22,033 bases of DNA. Source: a candidate division Zixibacteria bacterium SM23_81. GTDB taxonomy: Bacteria > SM23-81. The notes below the pieces were generated by a model, which worked only from the letters and a program-made list of their open reading frames with translations, did not search any database and was not told the DNA's origin. Made by a program: the position numbers and the translations under genes. This document shows, in pieces, positions 2,658 to 19,096 of this stretch (its first letter is position 1; each line of letters opens with the position of its first letter). The stretch spans positions 1 to 22,033 of the forward strand of contig LJUY01000048.1 of assembly GCA_001304015.1 (NCBI GenBank), given 5' to 3'.

Positions 2658-2665
2658 TGGCGCAA

Positions 2666-2674
2666 GCTCCTCCC
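2666..2674 (-). promoter_or_regulatory. Ribosome binding site of the transporter fusion gene
   Basis: On the minus strand GGGAGGAGC lies 8 bases before the ATG at 2657. It supports this start and hence the lipoprotein signal peptide. Confidence 0.7.
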
Positions 2675-2857
2675 AAACTCTTCTCCGAATTTAGATTGTT
2701 TGTAACACATTTCCTTGGGAAAGTCAAGTCTTTTTTGGAAGCGCATTAGTATGAAAAAGAAATTCTCTTGACAGAAAGCTTCCCATTGATTAACCTACAA
2801 TTACCAGTAGTGGGAAAGTTTGAAATTGACACTTGTTATCCACCAAGGGTGTGTAGC

Positions 2858-2864
2858 GGAGGAG
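2858..2864 (+). promoter_or_regulatory. Ribosome binding site of the corrinoid protein gene
   Basis: GGAGGAG lies 7 bases before the ATG at 2872, a near-ideal Shine-Dalgarno placement that fixes the start. Confidence 0.75.
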
Positions 2865-2871
2865 AACTTTC

Positions 2872-3513: not shown

Positions 3514-3657
3514 ACTCCCCTTCCCCTCAAAGCCCCCATGACCTCCTCCACAAGCCACCATCTCCGTCTTCACATGGAGTGCACCTGCGCCCGGTTTACT
3601 GTTTTGTCGCGGAGCTCACCGTTCGAAGTTTGAGACTGCCCAAGCATAGAGAGAAAT

Positions 3658-4713
3658 ATGAGCAGAAAAAACGAGCCGAATTTCGAGAGGCTGAGGACCG
3701 CCCTCTTCGCCGGGCAGCCCGACCGGGTCCCCTTGCTGGAGCTGTCCATCGACTGCTCCATAAAGGAGAAATTTCTGGGCAGACCGGTGAGAAATTTGAG
3801 AGATGAGATCGACTTCTTCGCTCGGGCCGGCTACGATGCCATCAAGCTCAGCCCTCTGATGGATATCAACCCCGACCATCGAGAGCCCAGAGAAGACTGG
3901 CGGACCACAGATAGCCTGGAGTTTAACCGCGATCGCGTGTGGGCCCCTGAAGGAGCTGGGATGATCACCAGCATCGAGGAGCTGGAGTCCTATCGCTGGC
4001 CTCTGCCCCAGGAGATCGACTACTCCCCCTTCGAAACGGCGGCAAAGTTACTTCCCCCCGGCATGAAAATAATCGGTCAGTATGGGGATATCTTCACCTG
4101 GGCCTGGACCTTGATGGGTTTCGAGACCTTCTCTCTAGCCCTGGTGGATAACCCCCAACTCGTGGCCCGGATGATGAGTACTCTCGGGGCGCTCATCACC
4201 GATATGTTTGCCACCATGGCCGATTTCCAAGAGGTAGGAGCCTTGTGGTACAGCGACGATCTGGCCTTTAAAACGGGTCTGCTGGTGTCTCCACAGGTGC
4301 TGCGGTCCCATCTTTTTCCCTGGATGAAGAAGATCAGCCAGCTCTGTGTCAAACGAGGAATCCCCTTCATATATCACTCCGACGGAAAGCTGGACCAGGT
4401 CATGGATGACCTCCTGGACTGCGGCATCAACGCCCTTCACCCCATCGAGCCCCAAGCCATGAACATCCGGGAGCTGAAGAGAGAATACGGAGGGCAAATC
4501 TGCCTGGTCGGAAATGTGGATCTGGAGTACACCCTTACGCGGGGGACGCCTCAGGAAGTGGCCGCGGAAACCCTGGCACTGATATGCGATGTGGGGCCAG
4601 GAGGAGGCTACTGCATGAGCTCCAGCAATTCAATCCCCGCGTACGTGCCCTTCGCCAACTACCAAGCCATGATTGAGACCACCCTCCAGCATGGCTGGTA
4701 CCCCCTAGATTGA
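3658..4713 (+). CDS. Uroporphyrinogen decarboxylase (URO-D) superfamily protein, probable corrinoid-linked methyltransferase
   Basis: This 351-aa protein matches the URO-D superfamily of MtaA/MtbA/CmuA-type methyltransferases in length and block order: N-terminal RLRTALFAGQPDRVPLLE, the central QYGDIFTWAWTLMGFE, YSDDLAFKTGLLVSP, IYHSDGK, LHPIEP, LVGNVD and the final GGGYCMSSSNSIP. MtaA-type enzymes bind zinc through His-x-Cys...Cys. Here the corresponding stretch is H240-S-D242, with C319 77 residues after D242, so the middle ligand looks replaced by Asp. C255 is a possible alternative. True haem-pathway HemE is unlikely: the neighbour is a corrinoid protein and there are no other haem genes. 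It could move a methyl group from a substrate to the corrinoid protein or from the corrinoid protein to an acceptor. The start is the only reasonable ATG; the upstream GAGAGA is a weak ribosome site. Confidence 0.82.
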   Translation: MSRKNEPNFERLRTALFAGQPDRVPLLELSIDCSIKEKFLGRPVRNLRDEIDFFARAGYDAIKLSPLMDINPDHREPREDWRTTDSLEFNRDRVWAPEGAGMITSIEELESYRWPLPQEIDYSPFETAAKLLPPGMKIIGQYGDIFTWAWTLMGFETFSLALVDNPQLVARMMSTLGALITDMFATMADFQEVGALWYSDDLAFKTGLLVSPQVLRSHLFPWMKKISQLCVKRGIPFIYHSDGKLDQVMDDLLDCGINALHPIEPQAMNIRELKREYGGQICLVGNVDLEYTLTRGTPQEVAAETLALICDVGPGGGYCMSSSNSIPAYVPFANYQAMIETTLQHGWYPLD

Positions 4714-4793
4714 AAACACAGAGGCCATCATCGGCAGGAGACTTCGTATAAGCAGAATAGAAGCCAGCGGCGACCTTCGGAGCCAAAAAGATA

Positions 4794-4822
4794 TTGACAT
4801 AGAGGGAAATTTGTCGTAATTT
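4794..4822 (+). promoter_or_regulatory. Possible sigma-70-like promoter before the envelope gene block
   Basis: A perfect TTGACA (4794-4799) is followed after 17 bases by TAATTT (4817-4822), which matches the TATAAT consensus at only three positions. It lies in the 217-base gap before the first gene of the 4931-16155 block, where a promoter is expected. FCB bacteria can use a different -10 consensus, so this is tentative. Confidence 0.3.
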
Positions 4823-4930
4823 GGAAAAAGACAATTACGTCTTGTCAAGCTACTTAAAGGATTATTTGAGTGCCAATTTTCAAAAATAACCCGTCCGTCT
4901 AGATCCATTATTCAACGTCCGAGGAAGGAC

Positions 4931-6793
4931 ATGTTACCTATAACGAGAAAAATCGGAATTTCTCTTTTGGCCTTGGGCTTATTGGTCCTACTGTGTGAAG
5001 TGGGTCCTGGCCAGGCTCAGGTTTCACAGATCTGGACTGAGACCACAGAGGAGGACTTTGCCAGCGGAATAGGCGTGGACACCATCAGCGTGGACATCCG
5101 CACCAGTCCTGGAGATATTATCCTGGCTGAGCCCCAGGAAAACTTTGCCTTTGGCAAAAGTGCCGAGGATGGTGGCGATGGCAACGCCAGTTACCCCCCC
5201 AGGAATCTTCTGGACGAAAACCTGGCTACCTTTTGGCTATCTAAGACACAACAACCATTGGGAGTTAGCATAATCGTGGACCTCCGGGCCGAGCGTCTCA
5301 TCGAACAGATCCATATCCTGGGATACATAGAGATCTTTCGAATCAGGGGATATCGGATGTCCGTGAGCCTCGATAAGGTAAAGTGGGTAACGGTGGCCGA
5401 GAACCCGGATAATCCGACCATGAACGTTTTCGAGACCATTGAGCCCACAGTGGCTAGGTATGTCCGTGTCACCATCATCACCATCGACCAGGTTCACGCT
5501 GTGGCCATCAGCGAGATCCAGGTCTTCGGGGCCGGTTTCGCAGCCCAGGGATCTTATTTCTCCGAGGCCAAGGATTTTGGAACCCTGACAAACTTCGGAG
5601 TGGCCACCTGGGGGGCGGAGTTTCCTGACCCGGATATGGACATCACTCTTCAGTTTCGCAGCGATTCCGTTCAGGTGCTCAATGATGGTGGTGTTCTGGA
5701 GGATACTCTCAAATTGGCCAACGAGATGGCTGAGCTGGTCCCCGGATCGGAAGTGGTCACCGATGAGTCCGAGATGATCCTGTACAACAGGGGCTTCGAT
5801 TACGATATCGACTATCAAAAAGGCCTTATCTGGCGTCTGGAGACTAGCACCATCGATAGCGCGGCCTTGATCATGGTGGACTATTCTCTCTGGAACGGAT
5901 GGTCTGAGGAGTATTATTCCGACCCGGATTCCGACCCGGATAGTACCCTCTTTCGTGTCACTGAGCCTCGACGATACCTTCAATATCGGGCCAACCTGTT
6001 CACCGGCACGATCAACACCCCCAAGCTGAAGGAAATCTCCATCAAGTACAGCACATCCAGCTTGGCCCAAAGGGCTCTGGGAACAGTTGTCCCCAATGAG
6101 GTGCCCATCATGAAGGAGAGCACGGTAACATATCTCCTTCAGTTCGCCTTTGGACCGACCAATTTAGGGGTGGACACCGTGATCGTGCTCACCCCGAGCC
6201 CCGCCAGGATCAGCGAGATACGTCTGAACGAGAATCCTTTAACTGGCGCAGATTACGAGGATTTCAGCACGAGAGAGAAGATCAAGATCGGCTTCACTCA
6301 ACCCATTCTGGCCGACTCAACGGCCACTTTGGAGATCGACTTCCGCACAACTCTGTTCTTAAGCCTCAACGCATACCCCGCCCAGATCATCAGCAACGAC
6401 ACCCCAGACAATCCTCAGTTTGTGGAACAAGGCGAGGCCACATGGGTCATCAGCACGACCGGTATCCCGACCGGACCACTGGTCTCAGTAGAGGCGAAAC
6501 CCAATCCTTTTTCTCCCAACGGAGATGGCCTCTTCGACGAGGCCTTCATCTCTTACTTCGTGGCCAAGATCGCCTATCCTCAACCGGTCAGCGTTAAGAT
6601 TTACAACCTGAACGGCGACAGGATCAGAACCTTGCGCGACCAAAAGGATCCGGCATTCTCTTATGAAATCCCATGGGATGGCCGGGATGACTCAGGCGAT
6701 CTGGTTTCCCCTGGCGTGTATATTTACCAGGTTAGGGTCAACACCGATTCTGGTACAGAGGTCGTGACGAAAACCATCACCGTGCAATACTGA
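4931..6793 (+). CDS. Secreted protein with discoidin (F5/8 type C)-like domain and C-terminal FlgD-Ig/CHU_C-like domain
   Basis: A 620-aa exported protein. The signal peptide is residues 1-29, with likely cleavage at GQA/QV. Residues ~72-205 read as an F5/8 type C (discoidin) galactose-binding-like domain: SYPPRNLLDENLATFW, IIVDLRAERLIEQIHILGY, ARYVRVTI and ISEIQVFG. The middle region (~205-515) is beta-rich and unrecognised. Residues ~523-620 begin with PNPFSPNGDG and run through VKIYNLNGDRIRTL, WDGRDDSGDLVSPGVYIYQV to a short tail. This matches FlgD-Ig/gliding-motility C-terminal domains and has the SPNGDG start typical of T9SS type B (CHU_C) signals, without the type A LIK ending. Ribosome site: GAGGAAGG just before the ATG. 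It is the first gene of a seven-gene block. It probably acts at the cell surface or in the periplasm, binding carbohydrate or another protein; no enzyme motif is seen. Confidence 0.75.
   Translation: MLPITRKIGISLLALGLLVLLCEVGPGQAQVSQIWTETTEEDFASGIGVDTISVDIRTSPGDIILAEPQENFAFGKSAEDGGDGNASYPPRNLLDENLATFWLSKTQQPLGVSIIVDLRAERLIEQIHILGYIEIFRIRGYRMSVSLDKVKWVTVAENPDNPTMNVFETIEPTVARYVRVTIITIDQVHAVAISEIQVFGAGFAAQGSYFSEAKDFGTLTNFGVATWGAEFPDPDMDITLQFRSDSVQVLNDGGVLEDTLKLANEMAELVPGSEVVTDESEMILYNRGFDYDIDYQKGLIWRLETSTIDSAALIMVDYSLWNGWSEEYYSDPDSDPDSTLFRVTEPRRYLQYRANLFTGTINTPKLKEISIKYSTSSLAQRALGTVVPNEVPIMKESTVTYLLQFAFGPTNLGVDTVIVLTPSPARISEIRLNENPLTGADYEDFSTREKIKIGFTQPILADSTATLEIDFRTTLFLSLNAYPAQIISNDTPDNPQFVEQGEATWVISTTGIPTGPLVSVEAKPNPFSPNGDGLFDEAFISYFVAKIAYPQPVSVKIYNLNGDRIRTLRDQKDPAFSYEIPWDGRDDSGDLVSPGVYIYQVRVNTDSGTEVVTKTITVQY
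5918..5941 (+). repeat. 12-bp tandem duplication within the discoidin-like gene
   Basis: TCCGACCCGGAT occurs twice head to tail, encoding the acidic run SDPDSDPDS. It keeps the frame. It may be a small slippage or duplication event in a surface-exposed loop. Confidence 0.8.
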
Positions 6794-6813
6794 GCACGTA
6801 AAGGAGCTAATAC

Positions 6814-7773
6814 ATGACCGGGAGAAGGCGTAAAAAAATTGTCCTTTTGCTGCTGATATGTGTCCCAGCTCTCCTGTGGGCAGTTCAGGCCCAAGCTGCC
6901 TTTATCGACGTGGGGCTGGGAGCCAGACCCGTGGGCCTGGGAAGAGCCTTCGTTGGTTTGGCCGATGACGCCAATGCAATGCTGTATAACCCTGCGGGCC
7001 TGGCTCACCTAGAGAGGATGGAGCTGACCTCCATGTATGCCCGCCTCTATCCTGGGATTGAGGATGACAAGCTTCACTTGGGCTATGTGGGTGTGGTGAA
7101 ACCCGTAAAGGGCTTTGGCACGTTAGGAATCGGAGCCACCAACCTGTGGGCCGATCTCTACGGAGAGAATATTTTTTATCTCAGCTATGCTCGAAAGATG
7201 AGCACTGGACTTAGCCTTGGAGGCAGCTTCAAGTTCCTCCGCTGGAGTGCTGATGGCTATACCGATCCGGAGGGACTCAGCGAGTTAGGACATTCCTGGA
7301 ATGGCTGGACCTTCGATGTGGGCCTTCTCTATTCGTTACGCTCGGAGAAACTGCTGCGTTTTATGGGTGCTGACGGCCTGCAGCTGGGCCTGTCGGTTCT
7401 AAACGTAAACCAGCCCAGCACGGCCAAAAATGGCGCCGAAGACGCCAAGCTCCCCATCGGCTTTGAGGGAGGACTGGTTTATAGGAGGGGAAATTACAAA
7501 GGCCTGCTCTCCTTTAGTCGCCGAGATGACATGAGCAGGCTTCACTTTGGACAGGAACTGGACCTCTTGGCTCAAGGTTCGAGGTCGGGCTCAGCATCCT
7601 TTCAGATCCGAGCCGGCGCCTTCAAAACACTCTCTGAGGAGAGTGGCGGAGAATTGGACTTTGGATGCGGTTTCGCCTTGAGGAATGCTCTTCTCGATTA
7701 CGCTTACGTCTTTCCTTTGGCCCTCCGAGACGTTGGTGGTTGCCACAAAGTTTCTATTGGATATACCTTTTAA
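6814..7773 (+). CDS. PorV/PorQ-family outer membrane beta-barrel protein
   Basis: This 319-aa protein has a signal peptide (residues 1-28, cleavage near AQA/AF). It then shows the family's N-terminal signature: GLGARPVGLGRAFVGLADD followed by NAMLYNPAGLA. The rest is alternating beta-strand sequence ending in the aromatic residue of GYTF, as expected for insertion by the Bam machinery. PorV/PorQ/UPF0164 proteins are FadL-like barrels; in T9SS organisms PorV carries substrates to the surface sortase. Whether this one is a true T9SS shuttle or a barrel dedicated to the adjacent ExbBD cluster cannot be decided. AAGGAG (6801-6806) lies 7 bases before the ATG. The gap from the previous stop is 20 bases, so the two are probably co-transcribed. 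Confidence 0.82.
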   Translation: MTGRRRKKIVLLLLICVPALLWAVQAQAAFIDVGLGARPVGLGRAFVGLADDANAMLYNPAGLAHLERMELTSMYARLYPGIEDDKLHLGYVGVVKPVKGFGTLGIGATNLWADLYGENIFYLSYARKMSTGLSLGGSFKFLRWSADGYTDPEGLSELGHSWNGWTFDVGLLYSLRSEKLLRFMGADGLQLGLSVLNVNQPSTAKNGAEDAKLPIGFEGGLVYRRGNYKGLLSFSRRDDMSRLHFGQELDLLAQGSRSGSASFQIRAGAFKTLSEESGGELDFGCGFALRNALLDYAYVFPLALRDVGGCHKVSIGYTF

Positions 7774-7806
7774 AGAGCAAATAGCTGAATATCAAATCCC
7801 ACAACC

Positions 7807-7812
7807 AAGGAG
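7807..7812 (+). promoter_or_regulatory. Ribosome binding site deciding a GTG start
   Basis: AAGGAG lies 6 bases before GTG at 7819 and 9 bases before a second in-frame GTG at 7822. An ATG at 7817 is out of frame and meets a stop after two codons. The start is therefore GTG; which of the two is uncertain. Confidence 0.65.
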
Positions 7813-7818
7813 CCATAT

Positions 7819-10431
7819 GTGGTGAACAGAGTTAAGCTTGGCCGTAATTTGGTCATCCCACTGGCCCTGTTCTTATTGAGTCTGCCCTCCAACTTGTGGG
7901 GCCAGTTCATCGAACCGCCAGGTGGAAGCGATGAGGTCTATGAGAACTACGCCAGCGAGCTGTATAAGAGCTATTCTCAGGAATTCGAGACCATCAAACA
8001 TTATGACGATTTCGGCAACTACCTCGTCGAGGGATTGGATGTCTTCGAGCTCGAGCAGAGACGACCGGGAGTTGGAAGGCTGATTAAGTACAAGTATTAC
8101 AGAAACTACTTCAATAACCTGGTCATCTCTCAGGACACCTACAAAGGCTTTGCCACCAGCTTAATCGTCGGCGACGCCGTCAGGACCAAGTTCACATCGC
8201 TGACCCTCGATCGCTCTCGTCTCAACGGTGTTCGCTGGGATGGAGCCACCCGCAAGAACCAGTTCACCATCTTGGGCTCCCGTCTCTCCTCCCCCATCAT
8301 CATGCCCATCGAGCAAGATCTCCAAGTGACATCTATTTCAGTTTCCCAGCAATGGCCGCGCTATCTTTTTGGAGGACACTGGAAAACCGAGGTGGGCGAT
8401 ATCCTCAAGCTGGGCGCCACCTACCTGAACCTCTCCCAGATCAAAAGTGAAGAGGAATCGAAGGAGCGAAATTTTCTCAAAGGAGACGTGACCGAGGCCG
8501 AGCCACGAGAAATCTACTTGCGCTTCACCGACGACTCGCCGGAAAGCGATTGGGGGGCGCTGATCTACGGACCCCCTTCTGCCATCCTGACCTATGAGGA
8601 GGGCAATGTCAGAAAAAGGATGGCCATCGAGGCCATCCCCGAGCGAGAAACAACCTACCCCTTAGAGGTCAATGGCGAGGACAGCTTCGTTTTCACCTAT
8701 CCCATAAAGTGGGAGGAGGATGTTGTTGCCATTTCTGTCGACTTTGCGGCGGTGGTGGCCAATGATTTTCAGATTTCCGCAGCTCATGCATATGCCGCGG
8801 GTATCAATCCAGATTCACTGACGGACAACACCTTCTTCAAGGTGTATGAAAGAGCCCGTGGGGATGTTCATGACCAGTCCAATAAACAGGTGGTGCACAT
8901 TCGCTACGGATTGGATACCGGCATCTCCATCTACGGAATCGACTTCCAGGCATACTTAGGGGGTCTTGAGATCAAAGGCGAATACCTCATCAACACGCGC
9001 CATTCCAAATATCCCCTTCTTCCCGGAGACCGTTATACAGAGAAATCCAAGGCCTGGTATGTTCATCTGAAAACCAGACAAGGCCCATTCACGCTAGGAG
9101 GTGAGGTCTTTCGCGTCGATCCCGACTACGCCACCTCCCTGGATATCTATTCTCGCGAAGCCTACCTCTCCCCTTACTCTCCGGCAAGCGATACCTCCGG
9201 CGGGGTTCACGACTGGCTGGTCGATGATAACGACGATAACGACCGCTATCCAGACGGATGGCCATTCTGGTCTTCAGGAACGGGGGATTTCCAATCATTG
9301 TTTTATGGCAGGAACGGTTGGGAGGTCTGGAACCCGGAAAATCCCAAGCCGGACGCGGGCATTTTCCCAGGTCTGGACGAAAACAACGATGGCATCCCCG
9401 ATGACGACCAGAACACCAACAATATCATCGATTACTACGAATATTTCATGATGTATTACCGCGATCCTCCCCGATTCGATTTTGGAGACGACTGGAACAA
9501 CAACGGTATCATCGACAGCCGGGAGGACGACGTCAAGCCGGATCACATCTACGACCCCGATCTCAAGGGCCATCATCTGTTCCTCAGCTTGAGACCTTTT
9601 CGAGACATGGACTTCACTCTGGGCAGAATTCGCCAGGAGCAGATCGCCGGAGGAGGTCAAAACTTCATTAACTACGGAAAGCTGCTGTACAAGCTAGACT
9701 TTCCCCGATACGGAAAGGTTCAACTCTATCACGTCACCAAACGAGTTCAAGATGATATTCCCAACCCCACATTCCAGTTTCCAGAGGGTCCAGCTGGATT
9801 CATCAGCTTTACTCAGTCGGAATTCACACTTGACCCAGTACTGATGCGCAACAGCGTGGTGCATACCAGCTATGTGGGAACCCAATTTCTCGGCATTAGA
9901 GGACTCAACGTAGAGAATAACCTGAAAAGCGATGTGAACCGCATGCGCACCACCCCTTATCATGAGAAGGCCACCATCGAATACTGGGGGGGAGTTCACA
10001 AGATCGATTATAACCTGAAGCCCCTCCCCAGGCTGACCATCTCCCCCCAGCTCAAATATCGCTGGGAATGGGAACAGGAGAACCTGGCCACGGAGGAAGA
10101 CGAGACCCTACGGCACCAATACTGGGTCATGCCCATCCTGAGGATCGACTATGAGCTGACTCCCAGAACCATTATCCGAGCTGGTCTGCAGGGTGATCCC
10201 TTCTTCTTGGACGACAAGGCGTTCATGCACCGATACAGAAACAAGCTGGATCCCTCCGAGAGCCAAAACGCCCGCATATTCAAGGCAATGGTGACCCAAG
10301 CTGCTGACTATTTCGGATATAAGGTCTATTTCAATGCTGGCTTCGAGATCCAGCGCATCAGGTTCCTGGAGGATCCAGATAAGGAGCCAGATTACTCCAA
10401 TATCTGGGTCACAGTTTTGGCCGGCTGGTGA
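7819..10431 (+). CDS. Large probable outer membrane protein with EF-hand-like acidic loops
   Basis: I do not recognise this 870-aa protein's family. It starts at GTG and has a signal peptide (cleavage near LWG/QF, residue 28). The N-terminal part has FETIKHYDDFGNYLVEG, then many alternating hydrophobic/aromatic strands. The C-terminal third is barrel-like (PRLTISPQLKYRWEWEQE, PILRIDYELTPRTIIRAGL) and ends in Trp (LAGW), as outer membrane barrels often do. Two calcium-loop-like stretches stand out near residues 520 and 557: DENNDGIPDDDQN and DWNNNGIIDSRED. Both have the D-x-N-x-(D/N)-G spacing of EF-hand or dockerin-type loops. There is also an acidic DDNDDNDR run near residue 470. It sits between a PorV-like barrel (45-base gap) and a TPR protein (27-base gap), in the same orientation as the ExbBD genes. 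An envelope structural or channel role is inferred from this context. Confidence 0.6.
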   Translation: MVNRVKLGRNLVIPLALFLLSLPSNLWGQFIEPPGGSDEVYENYASELYKSYSQEFETIKHYDDFGNYLVEGLDVFELEQRRPGVGRLIKYKYYRNYFNNLVISQDTYKGFATSLIVGDAVRTKFTSLTLDRSRLNGVRWDGATRKNQFTILGSRLSSPIIMPIEQDLQVTSISVSQQWPRYLFGGHWKTEVGDILKLGATYLNLSQIKSEEESKERNFLKGDVTEAEPREIYLRFTDDSPESDWGALIYGPPSAILTYEEGNVRKRMAIEAIPERETTYPLEVNGEDSFVFTYPIKWEEDVVAISVDFAAVVANDFQISAAHAYAAGINPDSLTDNTFFKVYERARGDVHDQSNKQVVHIRYGLDTGISIYGIDFQAYLGGLEIKGEYLINTRHSKYPLLPGDRYTEKSKAWYVHLKTRQGPFTLGGEVFRVDPDYATSLDIYSREAYLSPYSPASDTSGGVHDWLVDDNDDNDRYPDGWPFWSSGTGDFQSLFYGRNGWEVWNPENPKPDAGIFPGLDENNDGIPDDDQNTNNIIDYYEYFMMYYRDPPRFDFGDDWNNNGIIDSREDDVKPDHIYDPDLKGHHLFLSLRPFRDMDFTLGRIRQEQIAGGGQNFINYGKLLYKLDFPRYGKVQLYHVTKRVQDDIPNPTFQFPEGPAGFISFTQSEFTLDPVLMRNSVVHTSYVGTQFLGIRGLNVENNLKSDVNRMRTTPYHEKATIEYWGGVHKIDYNLKPLPRLTISPQLKYRWEWEQENLATEEDETLRHQYWVMPILRIDYELTPRTIIRAGLQGDPFFLDDKAFMHRYRNKLDPSESQNARIFKAMVTQAADYFGYKVYFNAGFEIQRIRFLEDPDKEPDYSNIWVTVLAGW

Positions 10432-10458
10432 TCCCCTTTTATCCACAGGCCCAGAGTT

Positions 10459-13400
10459 ATGATAGAACGACTTCTCATCCTCATAATCACTGCCAGCATC
10501 GGGTTAAGCATGGTGGTGCCCTCGCCTCAGGAGCTCACCGCCTATTTTAAAGAAGGTCAGGGACTCTTCGCCATCGAGGATTATCGTGGAGCCATCCAGA
10601 AGTTTCAACGCATCGTAAAAACGGAAAGCAGGCTTCTGGATGAGGAAAATGTGATGGTCCCGGTGACCCTCGAGGAGGAGTTGCATGTCCCCGTGCAATT
10701 GGCCGCCACCTACCAACTGGGAAACTCCCATAAAAAACTGGGCGAGTTCGATCAAGCGGTGATTCATTTCCAAAAGGTGGTTCAAGAGGCTCCTCTGGAG
10801 CAGCTGCGCAGCTTGGCCCAGTTTCAGATCATCTCTGCGCGCTACGAGCAGCAGGAGTACCATAAGGCGGTGGAAGAGGCTCGGCAGCTGGTGGAGACTT
10901 TTCCCCAAAGTCGATACCTGGAGCGGGCTCTCTACAACATGGGCTGGGCCTATTATCGCCTTAATCAATATCCGAAGGCCATCGAGGCGTTTTCCGAGGA
11001 AATAGAAAAATTTCCCCAGGGGGATTACGCCGCGCGAGCACAATATCAGATCGCACAATCCCACTACGATGGGGAGAACTATTCTCAAGCCATCGAGAGC
11101 TACCGGGAGGTCATCGACCGCTACACTCCCGAAGAGTTCTCAGAGCAGGAGTGGAGCAAAGCGCTCCTGAGCCGTCTGCGCAAGCGCTCCCAAGCCGAAA
11201 GAAGCGTTCTCAAGGGATTGGAAGAACAAAATCTCGTAGAGCTATCGGCCAAAGCCCAGCTCCAAATAGGCGAGTGTCACGTCAAGCTTGGCCAACCTAA
11301 GGAGGCTATAGAGGCTTACCGGGGAGTCACCGAAAACTTTCTGCCCCTTACCGACCTTGTGGAGCTGGCTTACCTCAAGATGGCCGAAACGGCCATGGAA
11401 GCTGATGGCCTTGAGGCCAGCGTCAAAATTTATCGGGACGCTCTGGACAACAGCTCCGATCGGAAATTTCAAGCCAAGATGCAGTATCAAATCGCCAAGC
11501 TGTATTTCCAGCAAGAGATATTTGAACAGTCAGCTATGGAGTATCAGATCTACATCGATGGATACACGGAAGAGGGCCCCAGTATAGGATTTTCTGCCGA
11601 GGACGCCCAGTATGCCATCGGTTTAAGTTACTTTCAAGCCAAGATGTATGAACGTTCCATAGAGGAATATCAAAAGGTTTTAGATCAATACCCCGACAGC
11701 CCGCTGGTGGCTGGCGCCCTATATAGCATCGGCCTCAATCACCAGATGCTCAAGGAGTTAGAGCAAGCCGAAACGGCCTACCAGAAGGTGGTGGACAACT
11801 ATCCAGAGCACCACCAGACGCCCCCGGCCCTGTTGCAGCTAAGCCGACTCTACTTTGAGCGAGAAGAGTACCAGGATGCCAAAAGCTCTTACAGGAGGCT
11901 CCTGGAGAATTACTCAGATTCAACCCAGGTGGAGGTAGCTGTCGTTCTCTACGAGCTGGGTTTGACCTGTCGTAACATGGATGAGATAGAGGAAGCGGCC
12001 AGCTATCTCCGGCGCATCGAGCCAACCTCCGAGCTGTTTGCCGGGGCCGTTTCCGAGATCAACGAGATGTTCATCAAAAAGGGCGATTTCCAACAAGCCG
12101 AAGAGGAACTGGCTGAAGCCTTAGCGAAAACCGAGGACCAAACGGCTATCGCTCAGATTCGCTACGCACGAGCCAGGCTCTATGTGGCCCAGCAAGAATT
12201 CCGCCGTGCTCTGGACGATTTTAGCTATGTGATCGATCACCTGGAGGACCAAAATCTTCGGATCAACGCCCTCTTTGGTAGGGGCGTCATCCACTACCAG
12301 TTCGAGGAATACCAGGAGGCCATCCCCGATCTGGAGCTCGTGATGACCTCGCAGGCAGATCCCAACTTAAAGAAGGAGGCCCGCCAAAAGCTGGGCATCA
12401 GCTATTTAAAAACTGGCCAAAAAGACCGGGCTCTTTCGCTGGCTCAACGCCTCCAGGAGTCGGCCACCGATCCGACTCAAAAGGCCGAGTCCTTTCTCAT
12501 CATAGCAGACCTGTATTACGAGCTCAAGGAATTTAACTTGGGCGTGAAATCCGCCGGACAGGCATTGAGCCTAGAGGGAGTGCAGGATGAGCTCAAAGTT
12601 CAGGCTTACTATATCACGGGCAATTGCTGGAGTGGCATGAAAAACTACCTCAAAGCCCTAGAAGCCTACAGTATGGCCTTGACCAAGTATCCAAACTCCG
12701 CATATCGGGCTGACTTGCTATTTCAGTCGGGCATCATGTCCTACAACCTGGAGGATTATGAGGCCTCCGCCACCAAATTCGAGCGCTTCGCCGAGGAGTT
12801 TGGGGAACATCCCAATATGGTCTTCGCCCTCTACTACCAGGCATATTCCCACTTTCGCCGTGGCCTGTGGCAAGATGCCAGAATGATCTTCAGCCGGTTA
12901 ACCAGCAAGTATCCCAATAGCGAGATGGTAGATGAGGCTCACTATCAAGTGGCAGAGTGTTTCTACAACGAACGTCAGTATCACAAAGCCCTGGAGGCCT
13001 ATCATTTGATTCTGCGAGATTATTCGGAATCACGCTATGCCGAAGATGCACTTTATAACGTGGCCTGGTGTCAATTTCAACTGGAGCAGGAAGAACAGGC
13101 CGTGGCCACTCTTCAGCAGGTCGTCATCAGATTTCCCCAGGGCGACTATAGTGCGGACGCTCAGTTTACGGTCGGTGACTACTTTTACAACAAGAGAGAT
13201 TATGCACAGGCCGAGAAGGCTTACCAGAATGTCATCGACCTCTTTCCTGAGAGTCCCCGCGCGCGTCAGGCAGGTGCCCTCATTCACGAGCTGAATCAGA
13301 TCACATCTTACTTGGCATATCAGGAGGCCGTTGTCCTGTTCGACGAGAAAAAATACCTGGCCGCCATCAAGGCCTTTCAGGGGATCATCGACGAATATCC

Positions 13401-13584
13401 GCGCACCGACGTGGTTGTGGGCGCCTGGGCAAACATCGGCGCCAGCTATGAGCAGTTAAGTCGCTGGGATGATGCCCTGGAGATTTACAACAAAGTAATC
13501 GATCTGTATGGCGACTCCCCACAGCATCAGGATGCGGTGGCTTTCGCCATGGAACACAAGGAATGGATTGAGGACACCTTTTAG
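10459..13584 (+). CDS. Long exported tetratricopeptide repeat (TPR) protein
   Basis: A 1041-aa protein. An N-terminal hydrophobic segment (residues ~4-20, MIERLLILIITASIGLSMVV) acts as a signal peptide or anchor, with no clear cleavage site. From about residue 25 to the end it is almost entirely TPRs of roughly 34-39 residues, on the order of two dozen, with the usual pattern (ALYNMGWAYYRLNQYPKAIEAF, AQYQIAQSHYDGENYSQAI, ALYSIGLNHQMLKELEQAE). Many repeats have the YP(N/D)S turn seen in YbgF/BamD-type periplasmic TPRs. It would form a long superhelical scaffold in the periplasm. Its place directly before exbB parallels the association of TPR proteins with Tol-Pal (YbgF/CpoB) and Agl-Glt motors. 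The ribosome site is weak. No enzymatic domain is seen. Confidence 0.82.
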   Translation: MIERLLILIITASIGLSMVVPSPQELTAYFKEGQGLFAIEDYRGAIQKFQRIVKTESRLLDEENVMVPVTLEEELHVPVQLAATYQLGNSHKKLGEFDQAVIHFQKVVQEAPLEQLRSLAQFQIISARYEQQEYHKAVEEARQLVETFPQSRYLERALYNMGWAYYRLNQYPKAIEAFSEEIEKFPQGDYAARAQYQIAQSHYDGENYSQAIESYREVIDRYTPEEFSEQEWSKALLSRLRKRSQAERSVLKGLEEQNLVELSAKAQLQIGECHVKLGQPKEAIEAYRGVTENFLPLTDLVELAYLKMAETAMEADGLEASVKIYRDALDNSSDRKFQAKMQYQIAKLYFQQEIFEQSAMEYQIYIDGYTEEGPSIGFSAEDAQYAIGLSYFQAKMYERSIEEYQKVLDQYPDSPLVAGALYSIGLNHQMLKELEQAETAYQKVVDNYPEHHQTPPALLQLSRLYFEREEYQDAKSSYRRLLENYSDSTQVEVAVVLYELGLTCRNMDEIEEAASYLRRIEPTSELFAGAVSEINEMFIKKGDFQQAEEELAEALAKTEDQTAIAQIRYARARLYVAQQEFRRALDDFSYVIDHLEDQNLRINALFGRGVIHYQFEEYQEAIPDLELVMTSQADPNLKKEARQKLGISYLKTGQKDRALSLAQRLQESATDPTQKAESFLIIADLYYELKEFNLGVKSAGQALSLEGVQDELKVQAYYITGNCWSGMKNYLKALEAYSMALTKYPNSAYRADLLFQSGIMSYNLEDYEASATKFERFAEEFGEHPNMVFALYYQAYSHFRRGLWQDARMIFSRLTSKYPNSEMVDEAHYQVAECFYNERQYHKALEAYHLILRDYSESRYAEDALYNVAWCQFQLEQEEQAVATLQQVVIRFPQGDYSADAQFTVGDYFYNKRDYAQAEKAYQNVIDLFPESPRARQAGALIHELNQITSYLAYQEAVVLFDEKKYLAAIKAFQGIIDEYPRTDVVVGAWANIGASYEQLSRWDDALEIYNKVIDLYGDSPQHQDAVAFAMEHKEWIEDTF

Positions 13585-13640
13585 CCCTTCAGGCAAAAAA
13601 CGTTCCTGGAAAATCTTGACGTCTACCCAAGGGGGTATCC

Positions 13641-14441
13641 ATGTTCAAGTTGATCGTCCAAGGGGGGCCCTTGATGGTCCCTCTGGTGCTGTGCTCGTTC
13701 TTATCCGTGGCATTCATCATCGAGCGGCTCTGGTCGCTGCATAAGATTCCCACTAAAACTGAGGCCAATGACTGTCTGATGGACGCATCCAAGGCCTTGA
13801 AAAACGGTGGGATTGAGGAAGCTAAATCCTTTTGCGGCCGGCTCAAGGGAATTCTGCCCTTCGTGTTCACCCTGGTCATGGATCGATACGATGCCCTGTC
13901 ACATGAGACACGGACCATTGGCGAGATCAGGGATGAGCTCATCGCCACCACCGAGGAGGCGGGTAGGTCTTATCTGGAGCGCTTCTTGCCAGTCCTCAGC
14001 ACCGTGGGTGGGGTCTCTCCCCTCCTTGGTCTGCTGGGCACAGTGACCGGCATGATCGTGGCCTTTAAATCCATCGCCTCCGTGGGCGCCACCGGCGATC
14101 CACAAACGGTGGCCGCAGGCATTTCCCAAGCCCTTATCACCACCGCCGCTGGCTTGATCATCGCCATCCCCACGGTCATCGCTTACAGCTATCTCCGGCA
14201 ACGGGCCACCAAGATCCTCGTGGGCATGGAGCGTTTCTCCCACGGCTTCGTCAACAGCCTGATCACCGAGGTGGGCCGGTTCGTCTCCTACAAAGAAACT
14301 TTAAAGATGGCTTACGCCGATGGAGGTTTGGAAGAAGGCGAAAAGGAACTTCTGCACAGGAAGAGAGTCTTGCTGAATATCTCGGAGGAGAAAGCTGCAC
14401 AACTGGAGAAGGAGGTTAAAAAGGAGTTGGGCTCTGTATGA
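13641..14441 (+). CDS. exbB: MotA/TolQ/ExbB family proton channel, ExbB-like, with C-terminal extension
   Basis: A 266-aa inner membrane protein. Helix 1 is at ~9-30 (GGPLMVPLVLCSFLSVAFIIERLW), helix 2 at ~112-146 and helix 3 at ~163-185. The family core GGVSPLLGLLGTVTGMIVAF (T134 in the conserved GTVxG) and ALITTAAGLIIAIPTVIAY (T167/T168) carry the pore-lining threonines. With ExbD it conducts protons and powers a TonB-like protein. Residues from about 213 form a charged, probably coiled, cytoplasmic tail (EEGEKELLHRKR..., KEVKKEL) beyond the normal end of ExbB. AAGGGGG (13629-13635) lies 5 bases before the ATG. It is followed 25 bases later by exbD. TolQ is an alternative label; the DUF4159 TonB-like partner rather than TolA/B favours an ExbB label. 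Confidence 0.9.
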   Translation: MFKLIVQGGPLMVPLVLCSFLSVAFIIERLWSLHKIPTKTEANDCLMDASKALKNGGIEEAKSFCGRLKGILPFVFTLVMDRYDALSHETRTIGEIRDELIATTEEAGRSYLERFLPVLSTVGGVSPLLGLLGTVTGMIVAFKSIASVGATGDPQTVAAGISQALITTAAGLIIAIPTVIAYSYLRQRATKILVGMERFSHGFVNSLITEVGRFVSYKETLKMAYADGGLEEGEKELLHRKRVLLNISEEKAAQLEKEVKKELGSV

Positions 14442-14452
14442 GCACGTCCCTT

Positions 14453-14458
14453 AAGGAG
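14453..14458 (+). promoter_or_regulatory. Ribosome binding site deciding the TTG start of exbD
   Basis: AAGGAG lies 8 bases before TTG at 14467. The frame is closed by a TAA at 14452-14454, so TTG is the only usable start before the transmembrane helix. Confidence 0.75.
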
Positions 14459-14466
14459 TTTTAAAA

Positions 14467-14877
14467 TTGGCAAGAACCCAAAGCAAACTTTCAGAGACCA
14501 AATTGGATATCACGCCCTTGGTGGACTGTGTCTTCTTACTGCTGATCTTTTTCATGGTCACTACCGTCTTCTCCACAACCCCAGGTTTGCGCGTCGACCT
14601 TCCCAAGGCAGCAGAGTCGGATATGCCTCCGGAAAAAGACCTGAACATCGTCATCTCCAAAGACGGCGAGTTAGAATTAAATGGAGTACCTTGCACCATG
14701 GCAGAGCTGGATCGAGCCCTTCTGGAGGCCAAGGAGATGTACCGGAGTAAAGTTCTGATCATCAAGGCCGACAAAAAGACCTACCACGAGGTAGTAGTGG
14801 ATGTTATGGACGCTGCTAAGGGAGTAGGCATCGACGAGCTGGCCATCGCCACCGAGCTCGAGGAAGAAGAAAAGTAG
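14467..14877 (+). CDS. exbD: ExbD/TolR family biopolymer transport protein
   Basis: A 136-aa protein starting at TTG. A very short cytoplasmic tail leads into LDITPLVDCVFLLLIFFMVTTVF. Asp20 in PLVDCV is the conserved membrane Asp that takes part in proton flow. The periplasmic domain (residues ~45-130) has the family pattern: LPKAAESD, LNIVISKDGELELNG, LDRALLEAK, VLIIKADKKTYHEVVVDVMDAAKGVGIDELAIATE. The tail is acidic (EEEEK). Length is normal. It stands between exbB and the TonB-like gene, 6 bases from the latter, the classical order exbB-exbD-tonB. Confidence 0.92.
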   Translation: MARTQSKLSETKLDITPLVDCVFLLLIFFMVTTVFSTTPGLRVDLPKAAESDMPPEKDLNIVISKDGELELNGVPCTMAELDRALLEAKEMYRSKVLIIKADKKTYHEVVVDVMDAAKGVGIDELAIATELEEEEK

Positions 14878-14883
14878 GCCGTC

Positions 14884-16155
14884 GTGAGGAAGCACCTTAT
14901 TCCACCGAGGATGTTACTCAATAGATCAGATCGCATAGAGCTGGAAGCTCCGGGTCTGAGACCCCGCAAGGCCCTTTACTGGAGTCTGCTCATCTCTGTG
15001 ATTCTCCACACCGTCATTATCTTCTACCAGGTGGAGCTTCCAGAGCGGAGGAAGCCCGTCCGAAAGCCCATCAGTGTGAAGTTCGTGCAGAGGGCACCTC
15101 GATTGTCTAAACCCCTTGAGCTGATGAAGCGGCCGGTGGTGGTGCAACGGCAGCTAACCAGGAAAATCACTCGGCCCAAATCGGTCATTCCCCGGACCAT
15201 ACGCACCGCCGCTGTACACGGTGGCACGGCTTTGGCCTCCTTGGCGAAGCCGGGAGAGGCAGTGGAGAGAACTCTGGCTCCTCAGAGACTAGAATTGGGC
15301 CCCGAGATCATCTCTGGAGACGTGGAGAATATCAAGGAGCCAGAGGTCACGAACTTGGGAGAAGATCTGCTGGACGTAAGCGACATGGACACCGGCCGGT
15401 ATCGGGCCCAAGTGGTTGTCAATCCTGAGGATAAAAGAGACATCAAGGGCTACTTTCATATGGACCTGGTCAAATACAAGACCTCGCGGACCGATTACGG
15501 CGGCGATCCGGACTGGAACACCTCCCCCCGGGCCATGGCCAATCTCGCCGACTACCTGGAAACCTATACGGATGTGAAAGTGGACATCAAACAACGCTTC
15601 ACCATGGATTCCAAAGATTTAATCCGCTTAAAAGTCCCCCTTATCTTCATCACCGGTCATTTTCAATTGGAATACCATGCAGCCGAGGCCAGAAACTTGG
15701 GCGAATATTTAAGGGCCGGTGGATTTTTACTGGTCGACGACTCTTATTTCCTGAGAGGGGGTCCCTTCGACATGTCGGCCAGGGCCTTGATCAAGGATGC
15801 GCTGGGCGAAGATGCCGTCTTCGAAAAACTTCCCGGCGAACACTGGCTTTATCATTGCTTCTTTGACTTCGACGGACCGCCGGCGGGTGATGACATAGCC
15901 AGAGGTCCGTATCCTGGTCGAGGCGTTCAGACCATCTACGAGTATCTGGAGGCGATCTTCTTGGAGGGCCGCATGGTGGTCTTGTTCTCCAATAAAAGCT
16001 TAAACAACGCCTGGAACGGAGATTGGCGGATCAACCCAGCAAGCCGAGGTGGTCCCATCAACGATACCCGTCAGATGCAGTTCGGGGTGAATATCTTGGT
16101 CTTCACCCTTACCCAGCCAGGGGGGTTTGCGCAGCAAGCGCAAGTGTATCAGTAA
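14884..16155 (+). CDS. TonB-like transducer fused to a DUF4159 domain
   Basis: A 423-aa protein starting at GTG, 6 bases after exbD. A 30-residue cytoplasmic tail precedes a single membrane helix (~31-50). This contains S38-x3-H42, the Ser-His spacing of the SxxxH motif through which TonB and TolA engage their motors. A basic, proline-containing linker follows (~52-130), with many RP, KP and KR steps, as in TonB. Residues ~185-410 are a DUF4159 domain: DWNTSPRAMANLADYLE, VPLIFITGHFQLEYHAAEA, LRAGGFLLVDD and the closing QFGVNILVFTLT. DUF4159 is generally found in exported or membrane-anchored proteins and has a glutamine-amidotransferase-like fold by annotation; no catalytic role is established to my knowledge. 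There is no TonB C-terminal domain. The fusion should be anchored in the inner membrane, with DUF4159 in the periplasm, driven by ExbBD. Confidence 0.85.
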   Translation: MRKHLIPPRMLLNRSDRIELEAPGLRPRKALYWSLLISVILHTVIIFYQVELPERRKPVRKPISVKFVQRAPRLSKPLELMKRPVVVQRQLTRKITRPKSVIPRTIRTAAVHGGTALASLAKPGEAVERTLAPQRLELGPEIISGDVENIKEPEVTNLGEDLLDVSDMDTGRYRAQVVVNPEDKRDIKGYFHMDLVKYKTSRTDYGGDPDWNTSPRAMANLADYLETYTDVKVDIKQRFTMDSKDLIRLKVPLIFITGHFQLEYHAAEARNLGEYLRAGGFLLVDDSYFLRGGPFDMSARALIKDALGEDAVFEKLPGEHWLYHCFFDFDGPPAGDDIARGPYPGRGVQTIYEYLEAIFLEGRMVVLFSNKSLNNAWNGDWRINPASRGGPINDTRQMQFGVNILVFTLTQPGGFAQQAQVYQ

Positions 16156-16236
16156 ATGTCGCATCAAGATAAATTTTTCCTATGAGCTTCTTGCTTCGGC
16201 TTCCTCGTCCTGACACGAGAGACATGAGGCCTAATA

Positions 16237-16314
16237 CGTAATTCGTATTGCGTAAGAAAAACGAGGGGTATATTAAGAATAGCTGGTTTAGACTGTTACG
16301 CAATACGGATTACG
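16237..16314. repeat. 78-bp imperfect inverted repeat (possible MITE-like palindrome)
   Basis: Arms at 16237-16255 and 16296-16314 are 19 bases with one mismatch (CGTAATTCGTATTGCGTAA against TTACGCAATACGGATTACG), separated by 40 bases. It lies in the 202-base gap between the TonB/DUF4159 gene and the next lipoprotein gene. The AT-rich arms look unlike flanking coding DNA. It may be a small mobile palindrome, an RNA hairpin that separates the two transcripts, or a regulator site. No T-run follows. A weak TTGCGT / 17 bases / TATTAA promoter-like pair (16248-16276) overlaps it. Confidence 0.75.
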
Positions 16315-16344
16315 ATGCCAATAGCCACACTAAAGTTTTCACAT

Positions 16345-16350
16345 GGGAGG
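16345..16350 (+). promoter_or_regulatory. Ribosome binding site deciding the lipoprotein start
   Basis: GGGAGG lies 7 bases before ATG at 16358. An in-frame ATG at 16343 overlaps this site and has no ribosome site of its own, so 16358 is preferred. Confidence 0.7.
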
Positions 16351-16357
16351 TCTTTCC

Positions 16358-17125
16358 ATGTCCTGTCCTAGTCGAGTCAGTCACCTGGTTTTCTTCATCT
16401 GCCTGGCCCTCATCCTGATGAGCTGTGCCGGGCTGGTTCCTCCCAAAGTTCGGCTTCGCTCTCTGCTCATCCCTGCATCCAGCGAATTGGGAGAGGGTTA
16501 TACACAAGAGGCAGATGGCATGCTGGCATATCAACGACAGGGGATGAAGGTCACCGTCCAGTTCGTCACCGACGAGGAATTGAACGCCATGTTTCCCGAA
16601 CATTCGGACAAGGGACTTGCCTCCACCAATCCGTACACCTATGGAAATTGGGTGGATCCCGAACTGGGTTACACTCCCAATCGTTTCACCGTCTTCAAGG
16701 TCACCGTTCATAACTACACGTTGCCCAAGATTAACCTGAACCCGGCTGAGGTCGTGTTGACCTCCGATCGCGGCGACCGTCTCCCCTCCTATGTGCGCGA
16801 ATCCAAAGAAATAGGCCACTTGAGCTTCGAGGACTATTATCGGGAGCTTATGGGGCGAAGCGGTGTGGAGGAAAACCGGTTTGCCGAGCGTATGGGCCTG
16901 ATTCGCCAGACCTTATATGTAGATGGTAAAGTTTTTAAGGGAGACATGAAGGAGGGATTTTTGGCCTTTGATCCCTTAGACCCGAGAGTGAAAAAGGCCC
17001 AGCTGATTCTCAAAGATTTCGTTCTCCGCTATGACGCCAACGATTGGCCCGATCAGCTCATCGACCTGACCTTTCCCTATGACAGGCAGGTTCAGCAAGA
17101 AACCGAAGAAAAAGCTAAAAAATAG
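16358..17125 (+). CDS. Unrecognised lipoprotein
   Basis: A 255-aa protein whose family I do not recognise. The N-terminus is a lipoprotein signal (HLVFFICLALILMSCAG) with lipobox LMSC, so it should be lipid-anchored. The mature part is soluble, mixed alpha/beta, with the notable stretches VTVQFVTDEELNAMFPE, NPYTYGNWVDPELGYTPNRFTVFKVTVHN and PAEVVLTSDRGDRL. The F-T-V-F-K-V-T-V-x-N strand followed by P-A-x-V-V-L-T-S-D-R-G resembles small immunoglobulin-like lipoprotein domains, but this is only an impression. It ends in a charged tail (QQETEEKAKK). It is 6 bases from the next gene, so co-expressed with the GHL10-like protein. The longer start at 16343 is possible but less likely. Confidence 0.7.
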   Translation: MSCPSRVSHLVFFICLALILMSCAGLVPPKVRLRSLLIPASSELGEGYTQEADGMLAYQRQGMKVTVQFVTDEELNAMFPEHSDKGLASTNPYTYGNWVDPELGYTPNRFTVFKVTVHNYTLPKINLNPAEVVLTSDRGDRLPSYVRESKEIGHLSFEDYYRELMGRSGVEENRFAERMGLIRQTLYVDGKVFKGDMKEGFLAFDPLDPRVKKAQLILKDFVLRYDANDWPDQLIDLTFPYDRQVQQETEEKAKK

Positions 17126-17131
17126 GAGGAG

Positions 17132-18997
17132 ATGCGCCTGGCGCAATATATTATGTCCTCTCGTCGTATCAGCAAAAGTCTGCTTCTGACCATTATGGCA
17201 CTGGTCATCCTGGGTTTTACGTTGGACACCAGCTGGGCCGCCAATCCCGAGGGACGAGCTGTTTGGGTGACCCGGTGGGAGTATACCTCCGCCACGGGCA
17301 GCCTGTTATCCTCCAGCCATAAGGCCCGGATACGCCGTATTATGGACAGGGCCGTGGCGGGACATTTCAATGTCATCGTACTTCAGGTTCGAGGACAGGG
17401 CGACGCCTTTTACAACTCCAACTACGAGCCCTGGGCCTTTGAGCTCACCAGCACCTCACCCTCAGGCTTAGGGCAGGATCCCGGCTGGGATCCCCTCCAG
17501 TACGCCATAGACCAGGCTCATCAGCGGGGGCTGGAGCTTCACGCCTGGCTGAACACCTTCAACGCTTGGAGGGGGACCACCCCACCTCCCACGGGCATAC
17601 AGCCCGAACACATGTACAACGTTCATCCCGAATGGCTCTGCGCCGATTGGAACGGAACCCCCATGCCCTTGAACTCGGACTACGTGAGCTTCAGCCCGGG
17701 CAATCCGGAGGTCATCCAGCACGTCCACGATGTGGCCATGGATGTTGTCCAGCGCTACGACGTGGACGGCATCCACTTCGACTACATTCGCTATCCCAGA
17801 GATGTATATTCCCGGGATTTCGCCACCGACTCCCTGTTCTTCGAGGCGTATGGCATCTACCCCGACGAGAACACGGAGCTCTGGAAGGACTGGCAGCGCG
17901 ATCGCATCACCACATTCTTGCAGAATTTCTACTGGGAGGTCATATCCGTTAAGCCCATGGTTAAGATCTCCGCAGCCGTCATCGGCCGCTACAACTATCC
18001 CAGCTCAGGCTGGGACTGCTATAATACCGTCTACCAGGACGCCCGGCTGTGGGCCTCTCGGGGGATCGTGGACTATCTGGCTCCCATGATCTATTGGTCC
18101 CTGAGCGAGTTCGCCCCCTTGATACACGAGTGGACCCACTACTCCTACGGGCGGCATGTCTACGCCGGCATCCCCGCCTACAAAATGGACGAGTTCATGG
18201 GAGGATGGTCGGAGATCGAGGCCGAGATCGATACGGCCCGGGCGGCCAACGCCCAGGGCGTGCTCATCTTCCGCTCGGGGAGCCTCGACCCTAGTAGTGG
18301 TTACTACTGGACCGAGCTGGGGACCGACAGGTTCCGCACCTTGGCCACGGTGCCGCCCATGTGGTGGAAGGACAACGTGCCTCCGAACTCTCCGGATAAC
18401 CTCGCGGTCAACAAGGCAGGAGGACAATACCAGCTGTCCTGGGAGTCGCCTCCGCCAGCTTCTGACGGAGACGAAGCCTCCTACTACGGCGTTTACCGGA
18501 CCACAGGTCTCGCCATAGACGTGGACGATCCGGACCAGCTGATCCATCTCTCAGTTGGGCCGTCCACCGGTTTTACAGACACCTCGGCGGACTCCGGCAC
18601 TGCGTACCGCTATGCGGTCGTCGCCTACGATGACGGTGACAACGAGAGCGCTCCATCCCAGGAGGTAACCACCGCAGTCGAGCTGGTTCAGGAGAACACA
18701 CTACCCAGGACCAGTACCCTTCTTCAAAACTACCCCAATCCCTTCAATGCTAGCACAATTATCTCCTTTCAACTGGCCGGACATGAAAAAGCACTTGTGT
18801 CGACGACTGTAAAGATTTACAATGTCCTGGGACAGGAGGTGGCCATACTAGTGGATGGGACGCTGAAACCTGGTCAATACCAAACGCTCTGGGATGGCAG
18901 GAACTTACGGGGAGATGAGGTGGCCAGCGGGGTCTATTTTTACCGCCTCCAAGCAGGGAATCACCACCAGACGAGACGGATGATGCTCATCAGATAA
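17132..18997 (+). CDS. GHL10/DUF187 glycosyl hydrolase-like secreted protein with FN3 and T9SS type A-like sorting domain
   Basis: A 621-aa exported protein. The signal peptide ends near TSWA/AN (residue 36). Residues ~40-400 are the GHL10 (DUF187) TIM-barrel family: EGRAVWVTRWEY, FNVIVLQVRGQGDAFY, GLELHAWLNTFNAWRG and the hallmark DGIHFDYIRYP (~212-222), then VDYLAPMIYW and VYAGIPAYKM. A fibronectin type III domain follows (~408-500). Residues ~530-621 are a T9SS type A-like sorting domain: LLQNYPNPFNASTIISFQL, VKIYNVLGQEV, LWDGRNLRGDEVASGVYFYRLQAG and final RRMMLIR. It would be exported through T9SS and attached at the surface or released, acting on a polysaccharide or peptidoglycan-derived substrate; the substrate is unknown. 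AGGAGG lies only 2 bases before the ATG, unusually close, so in-frame ATG 17153 or CTG 17138 are possible starts. The signal peptide survives either way. Confidence 0.85.
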   Translation: MRLAQYIMSSRRISKSLLLTIMALVILGFTLDTSWAANPEGRAVWVTRWEYTSATGSLLSSSHKARIRRIMDRAVAGHFNVIVLQVRGQGDAFYNSNYEPWAFELTSTSPSGLGQDPGWDPLQYAIDQAHQRGLELHAWLNTFNAWRGTTPPPTGIQPEHMYNVHPEWLCADWNGTPMPLNSDYVSFSPGNPEVIQHVHDVAMDVVQRYDVDGIHFDYIRYPRDVYSRDFATDSLFFEAYGIYPDENTELWKDWQRDRITTFLQNFYWEVISVKPMVKISAAVIGRYNYPSSGWDCYNTVYQDARLWASRGIVDYLAPMIYWSLSEFAPLIHEWTHYSYGRHVYAGIPAYKMDEFMGGWSEIEAEIDTARAANAQGVLIFRSGSLDPSSGYYWTELGTDRFRTLATVPPMWWKDNVPPNSPDNLAVNKAGGQYQLSWESPPPASDGDEASYYGVYRTTGLAIDVDDPDQLIHLSVGPSTGFTDTSADSGTAYRYAVVAYDDGDNESAPSQEVTTAVELVQENTLPRTSTLLQNYPNPFNASTIISFQLAGHEKALVSTTVKIYNVLGQEVAILVDGTLKPGQYQTLWDGRNLRGDEVASGVYFYRLQAGNHHQTRRMMLIR

Positions 18998-19084
18998 TTA
19001 TCCAAGAACCTATGAGAGATGGGAGGTGATGTCCACAAAATTTGTTTCTTGGGATCGCGTTCTCAACTTTCACTCCTCATCGAT

Positions 19085-19090
19085 GGGAGG
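19085..19090 (+). promoter_or_regulatory. Ribosome binding site deciding the start of the large secreted protein
   Basis: GGGAGG lies 6 bases before ATG at 19097, directly ahead of a clear signal peptide. The frame could be extended to ATG 19019, but that would bury the signal peptide behind 26 extra residues. Confidence 0.75.
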
Positions 19091-19096
19091 CATAAA

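Follow-up and report, generated by a model that had tools for sequence, protein, structure and literature searches.

A conserved ten-gene block encoding an ExbB/ExbD-type motor and a DUF4159-tipped candidate force transducer in a Zixibacteria genome

Results

A ten-gene locus on the plus strand

The window analysed here is a stretch of 22,033 nucleotides from candidate division Zixibacteria bacterium SM23_81 (contig LJUY01000048.1; genome G000, 3.07 Mb). Seven open reading frames lie on its plus strand with spacings of 20, 45, 27, 56, 25 and 6 bases, and the ORF list together with Pfam and NCBIfam searches confirmed the genes, gaps and domain calls of a first-pass annotation. The first gene (4931..6793) encodes a 620-aa surface protein with a signal peptide, an F5/8 type C (discoidin) domain (Pfam F5_F8_type_C, 3e-15) and a C-terminal FlgD_ig/CHU_C tail of the T9SS type, FlgD_ig and CHU_C both scoring above cut-off. 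It is followed by a 319-aa PorV/PorP-like outer membrane barrel candidate with a C-terminal Phe (6814..7773; NCBIfam PorV_fam, 1.3e-23), an 870-aa outer membrane protein candidate with a Ca-binding-like Asp/Asn-rich insert and a conserved C-terminal LAGW (7819..10431), and a 1041-aa TPR protein with an N-terminal signal or anchor (10459..13584; TPR_6, 6e-83). An ExbB/TolQ-type motor protein with an extra C-terminal tail (13641..14441; MotA_ExbB, 1.8e-29), an ExbD/TolR-type motor protein (14467..14877; ExbD, 5.8e-31) and a TonB/TolA-like force transducer with a C-terminal DUF4159 domain (14884..16155) complete the series.

After a gap of 187 bases, three further genes follow on the same strand with spacings of 6 and 21 bases. 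They encode a 260-aa probable lipoprotein with the lipobox LMSC and no Pfam match (16343..17125), a GHL10 glycosyl hydrolase-like protein (17132..18997; GHL10, 5.6e-48) and a 907-aa protein containing three golvesin C-terminal domains (19019..21742; Golvesin_C, 1.5e-51), the last two carrying T9SS type A tails. Conservation in a second phylum (genome G077, see below) extends the block to ten genes, 4931-21742, in place of the seven proposed at first. A transcription break between 10431 and 13641, raised in the first-pass annotation as evidence against a single system, found no support; a consensus scan, which is a weak type of evidence, gave no terminator-like sites on the plus strand between the seven genes.

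Just upstream of the block, 2872-4713 encodes a corrinoid protein that resembles glycine betaine MtgC, together with an MtaA/UroD-like methyltransferase. The minus-strand gene at 384-2657 encodes a 757-aa protein in which, by eye, an extracellular solute-binding domain is apparently joined to an ABC sugar-permease domain. At the other end, a TolB-like WD40 propeller gene starts 16 bases past the golvesin gene (21759-22033) and is truncated by the contig end.

Recurrence of the gene order in two phyla

The distribution of the full-length transducer was surveyed in 205 genomes: four of its own phylum (G000-G003), 82 of the phylum that holds the Calditrichaeota CLD2 and KSB1 bacteria, 39 of the LCP-89 phylum and 80 of the Latescibacterota phylum. 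It was found in three of these (G000, G003 and G077), and the 870-aa protein in exactly the same three. The survey detected no full-length transducer in the 39 LCP-89 or the 80 Latescibacterota genomes. From G001 and G002, of the same phylum as the window, only canonical DUF4159 proteins were recovered, and the 870-aa protein is missing from both. The wider contig scan also gave only canonical DUF4159 proteins, with patterns that would miss the G077 copies, and no relatives were found on viral contigs.

In G003, a family relative of G000, the genes keep the same order, split over two contigs that both end inside the TPR gene; its transducer is 87% and its 870-aa protein 69% identical to those of the window. 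G077 is the sole carrier of the transducer, and likewise of the 870-aa protein, among the 82 genomes of its phylum. Its order is discoidin protein, PorV-like protein, 870-aa protein, TPR protein, ExbB, ExbD, transducer, second transducer, lipoprotein (at the same position as in the window), two inserted genes, GHL10 protein and golvesin protein. Identities between the lineages range from 40 to 74%: 40% for the discoidin protein, which has the same domains in both, 42% for the PorV-like protein, 45% for the 870-aa protein, 42% for the TPR protein over the full 1041 residues, 46% for ExbB, 74% for ExbD, 52% for the lipoprotein, 43% for the GHL10 protein and 44% for the golvesin protein. The two tandem transducer copies are 53% and 51% identical to that of the window (the first is also given as 52%), and this duplication (G077 contig locus 16663-19239) suggests paired transducers. 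Misbinning of the G077 contig was ruled out, the tetranucleotide correlation being 0.94 with another G077 contig and 0.47 with the window.

Chance does not explain why another phylum has these ten genes in the same order at about 45% identity. With the recurrence of the order in G003 and G077, the single-system idea of the first-pass annotation withstands the co-occurrence test set for it there. The rarity of the block (3/205 genomes) and its absence from G001 and G002 show that it is dispensable.

Motor proteins and a transducer with a DUF4159 tip

The two motor proteins scored 102.5 bits with Pfam PF01618 (MotA_ExbB) and 107.7 bits with PF02472 (ExbD), both well above cut-off. Against the NCBIfam equivalogs the ExbB protein stayed below cut-off, at 112 against 221 bits for TolQ and 67.5 against 206 bits for ExbB. 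By these scores, they are clear family members but are neither Ton nor Tol equivalogs. The membrane Asp of the ExbD protein (D20) is invariant in the homologues compared. The C-terminal tail of the ExbB protein, about 55 residues with a faint match to TerB (a TerB-like motif), is common to G003 and G077 and absent from the other, shorter ExbB proteins of G000.

The transducer has one membrane helix. Its S38 and H42 (SxxxH, the first half of the SHLS motif) do not vary among four homologues; the second half of the motif, L and S, is not kept. After the helix comes SVKFVQRAPRL, conserved as SVKF(V/I)Q-APRL in the four homologues at a position which, on sequence alone, would fit the motor-box strand. 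Between this segment and DUF4159 lies a linker of about 140 residues that contains more invariant blocks. The TonB/TolA layout (PMC12204202) consists of a helix motif and then a strand segment, and the helix motif and strand-like segment of the DUF4159 transducer match it. Neither a TonB_C nor a TolA C-terminal domain was found in the transducer with Pfam and NCBIfam, which gave only DUF4159 (PF13709; 103.8 bits against a gathering cut-off of 25.9). Pfam and the fold match likewise placed DUF4159, and no vWA domain, at the C-terminus.

A structural model of the DUF4159 domain, made from the window's domain and 34 canonical relatives, had a pTM of 0.81. Its best fold match was 4i66, a Haliangium DUF4159 protein (Z 22.5, 194 residues, 2.3 A), followed by IFT52, GATase and ThuA-like folds, tied at Z 7 to 9. 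The likeness to IFT52 (GIFT domain; Z 8.8) is on a par with that to other GATase folds and was not used as gliding evidence. Of 49 residues conserved in canonical DUF4159 domains, 32 are kept in the window's domain. There is no conserved Cys in the domain, and glutamine amidotransferase activity was rejected for this reason; a binding role for DUF4159 seems more likely than glutaminase chemistry. Canonical DUF4159 proteins (PF13709; 4i66), which have the same domain and fold as the transducer tip, are mostly secreted proteins of 200-280 aa, encoded beside MoxR/DUF58-like or other genes in the neighbourhoods read, and neither ExbB nor ExbD was found near the canonical genes at 80 loci. A literature search found no paper mentioning DUF4159.

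TolQ and TolR models give the ExbB and ExbD proteins higher scores than Ton-type models do, and the TPR protein, with repeats throughout 10459-13584 in Pfam, matches YbgF/CpoB models. Together with the TolB-like gene that begins at 21759, these matches would fit a Tol-Pal-like envelope or wall system, in which the motor pulls the outer membrane or peptidoglycan during growth or division and the GHL10 protein cuts glycan strands. DigH of E. coli is of the GHL10 type. In multicopy, this glycosyl hydrolase suppresses tol-pal defects (PMC12288456), which also speaks for this reading. However, no Pal-type gene was seen among the genes scanned in the window, no TolB-like gene adjoins the block in G077, and the T9SS tail of the GHL10 protein would direct its export to the outside. 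The transducer also differs from TolA in its C-terminal domain, and the block, missing from G001 and G002, is not universal in its own phylum. A Tol-Pal-like role is thus considered quite improbable.

Barrel candidates and tailed surface proteins

The product of 6814..7773 scored 84.1 bits with NCBIfam NF033709, just below the cut-off of 90; its G077 orthologue scored 66.9 bits and passes Pfam PorP_SprF. The earlier identification of this protein as PorV-like is supported by significance and not by the curated cut-off. The signal peptide, the conserved terminal Trp and a sub-threshold SlpA_C beta-barrel match, which falls on the same stretch in each of the two lineages, make the 870-aa protein (7819..10431) a barrel candidate. 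Membership of SlpA is not claimed, since the match is below cut-off. The 870-aa family profile had no match among PDB sequences, and structure prediction from the single sequence was uninformative (pLDDT 30).

No plug-domain protein (PF07715, TonB-dependent receptor) is encoded on the contig of the block, in agreement with the proposal of a system without such a receptor; ten are encoded elsewhere in G000. The same proposal had set uptake aside, which goes too far in view of the glycan-related surface proteins. In energised glycan uptake, the discoidin, GHL10 and golvesin proteins would bind and cut polysaccharide on the cell surface and the 870-aa barrel would import the products, with the DUF4159 transducer replacing TonB. 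Galactose-binding-type, GHL10 and golvesin domains all occur in the block, and in Fibrobacter succinogenes an ExbB/ExbD/TonB set near two TPR genes is upregulated on cellulose and has been proposed to serve cellodextrin uptake (PMC6851124). We regard such uptake as unlikely on balance, with no plug domain on the contig, no TonB C-terminal domain on the transducer and neither a sugar transporter nor a SusD-like gene in the block.

The GHL10 and golvesin proteins scored 35.8 and 37.9 bits with the type A tail model TIGR04183 (cut-off 23). The tail of the discoidin protein passes Pfam FlgD_ig and CHU_C only and stays below the NCBIfam T9SS cut-offs. SprA, the translocon of T9SS, is encoded in all four genomes of the phylum (G000-G003), which lies outside Bacteroidota. 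In G000 its gene (C94:49895-55423) stands alone near LptF/LptG-like genes, away from the block. Adjacent PorP-like barrels serve as anchors for type B tail proteins in Bacteroidota (PMC9143113), and the discoidin and PorV-like gene pair shows this pattern. The comparisons with Ton, Tol and Agl-Glt systems drawn in the first-pass annotation are incomplete, as the T9SS-type tails and the SprA of the genome add a link to type IX secretion.

These features raise the question of whether the motor stands in for GldL/GldM in type IX secretion. The presence of SprA in 4/4 phylum genomes, with GldM matched in 0/4 by a search that was positive in none of the control genomes, and the PorV-like and TPR parts of the block would agree with this. 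Yet G001 and G002 have SprA without the block, SprA is located elsewhere in the genome, and the SprE-like matches of the TPR protein are generic TPR matches below cut-off. We therefore hold a T9SS motor to be very improbable. The GltC-type TPR model of Myxococcus Agl-Glt gliding also stayed below cut-off with the TPR protein (27.4 against 450 bits).

A second cluster of G000 (C36:50000-69000, locus 2280-13389) encodes an FlgD-tailed protein, a PorV-family barrel that itself carries an FlgD_ig tail, a 1043-aa TPR protein, ExbB, ExbD and a TonB with an ordinary TonB_C domain. As an independent hint, it suggests a connection between PorV-type barrels, tailed proteins, TPR proteins and proton motors. 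The tetranucleotide usage of this cluster is somewhat closer to G077 than is that of the rest of G000.

Discussion

The reading that we tentatively prefer, at somewhat less than an even chance, is a dedicated proton-driven trans-envelope complex acting on an outer membrane complex that displays T9SS-exported surface proteins. Several lines of evidence argue for this reading: the ten-gene order in two phyla on authentic contigs, the exact co-occurrence of the transducer and the 870-aa protein, the invariant helix Ser/His and following segment without a TonB or TolA C-terminal domain, the confirmed DUF4159 fold without a conserved Cys, the T9SS tails and SprA with the precedent of PorP-like anchoring (PMC9143113), and the second G000 cluster, which repeats a surface protein, PorV, TPR, ExbB, ExbD and TonB. 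Counting against it are the discoidin tail below the NCBIfam T9SS cut-offs, the rarity and dispensability of the block, and the glycan-related genes, which fit uptake equally.

In such a complex, protons would flow through an ExbB-type pentamer and an ExbD-type dimer, the 5:2 stoichiometry being taken from known homologues. The motor would act on the transducer via two elements, the S38xxxH42 helix and the conserved segment that follows, a contact suggested by the motifs, and the linker would carry force to the GATase-like DUF4159 domain. This domain would serve as a grip and not as an enzyme, and may engage the TPR protein or an outer membrane barrel. Work would then be done on a complex that the PorV/PorP-like barrel forms with the 870-aa barrel and that may hold or move the discoidin protein after its export by an SprA-type T9SS, as the SprB-SprF precedent suggests. 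The likeliest use would be to adhere to a glycan surface or to move along it, which is the weakest step of the scheme. The assignment of motor and transducer is well supported; what the DUF4159 tip grips, and the cellular task of the complex, we infer. A bolder reading is an unrecognised class of machine with a 5:2 motor outside Bacteroidota, in which the DUF4159-tipped transducer mechanically drives or loads T9SS-exported adhesins via the paired barrels. Such an engine for gliding or surface display would use ExbBD parts and not GldLM; this is distinctly unlikely.

With the Ton system (ExbB-ExbD-TonB), the block shares the motor families, the SxxxH helix and a conserved segment after it; it differs from that system in having no TonB C-terminal domain and no plug receptor. 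With the type IX secretion and gliding machinery (SprA, PorV, SprB-SprF, GldLM) it has in common a PorV/PorP-like barrel beside a tailed surface protein, a TPR protein, a proton motor and SprA. In contrast to the latter, the motor here is ExbB/ExbD-like with a separate transducer, and SprA-bearing relatives lack the block.

In 2025, motor-driven force transducers with a foreign C-terminal domain (the vWA class) were described beside a TPR gene (PMC12204202). The term 'undescribed', applied to the system at first, holds only in part, as PMF-driven transducers with non-TonB tips beside TPR genes are among those published then and it is the DUF4159 tip that differs. A TolQ/TolR-type motor, a TonB-like helix, a foreign tip and a TPR gene adjoining the motor are shared with the vWA class, as is the gene order TPR, tolQ-like, tolR-like and transducer, although one tolR-like gene is present here and two are present there. 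The present system is thus of the same kind as the foreign-tipped transducers of 2025. What is new is the DUF4159 (GATase-like) tip, together with the linked barrels, the T9SS-tailed, sorted surface proteins and the other lineages in which these are found.

These results provide a plausible job, force transmission, for DUF4159, which is otherwise known as a small secreted protein. They add a second type of foreign-tipped transducer beside the vWA class and tie motors to T9SS-type surface proteins outside Bacteroidota. If this interpretation is true, 5:2 proton motors would be a general power unit with exchangeable periplasmic grips.
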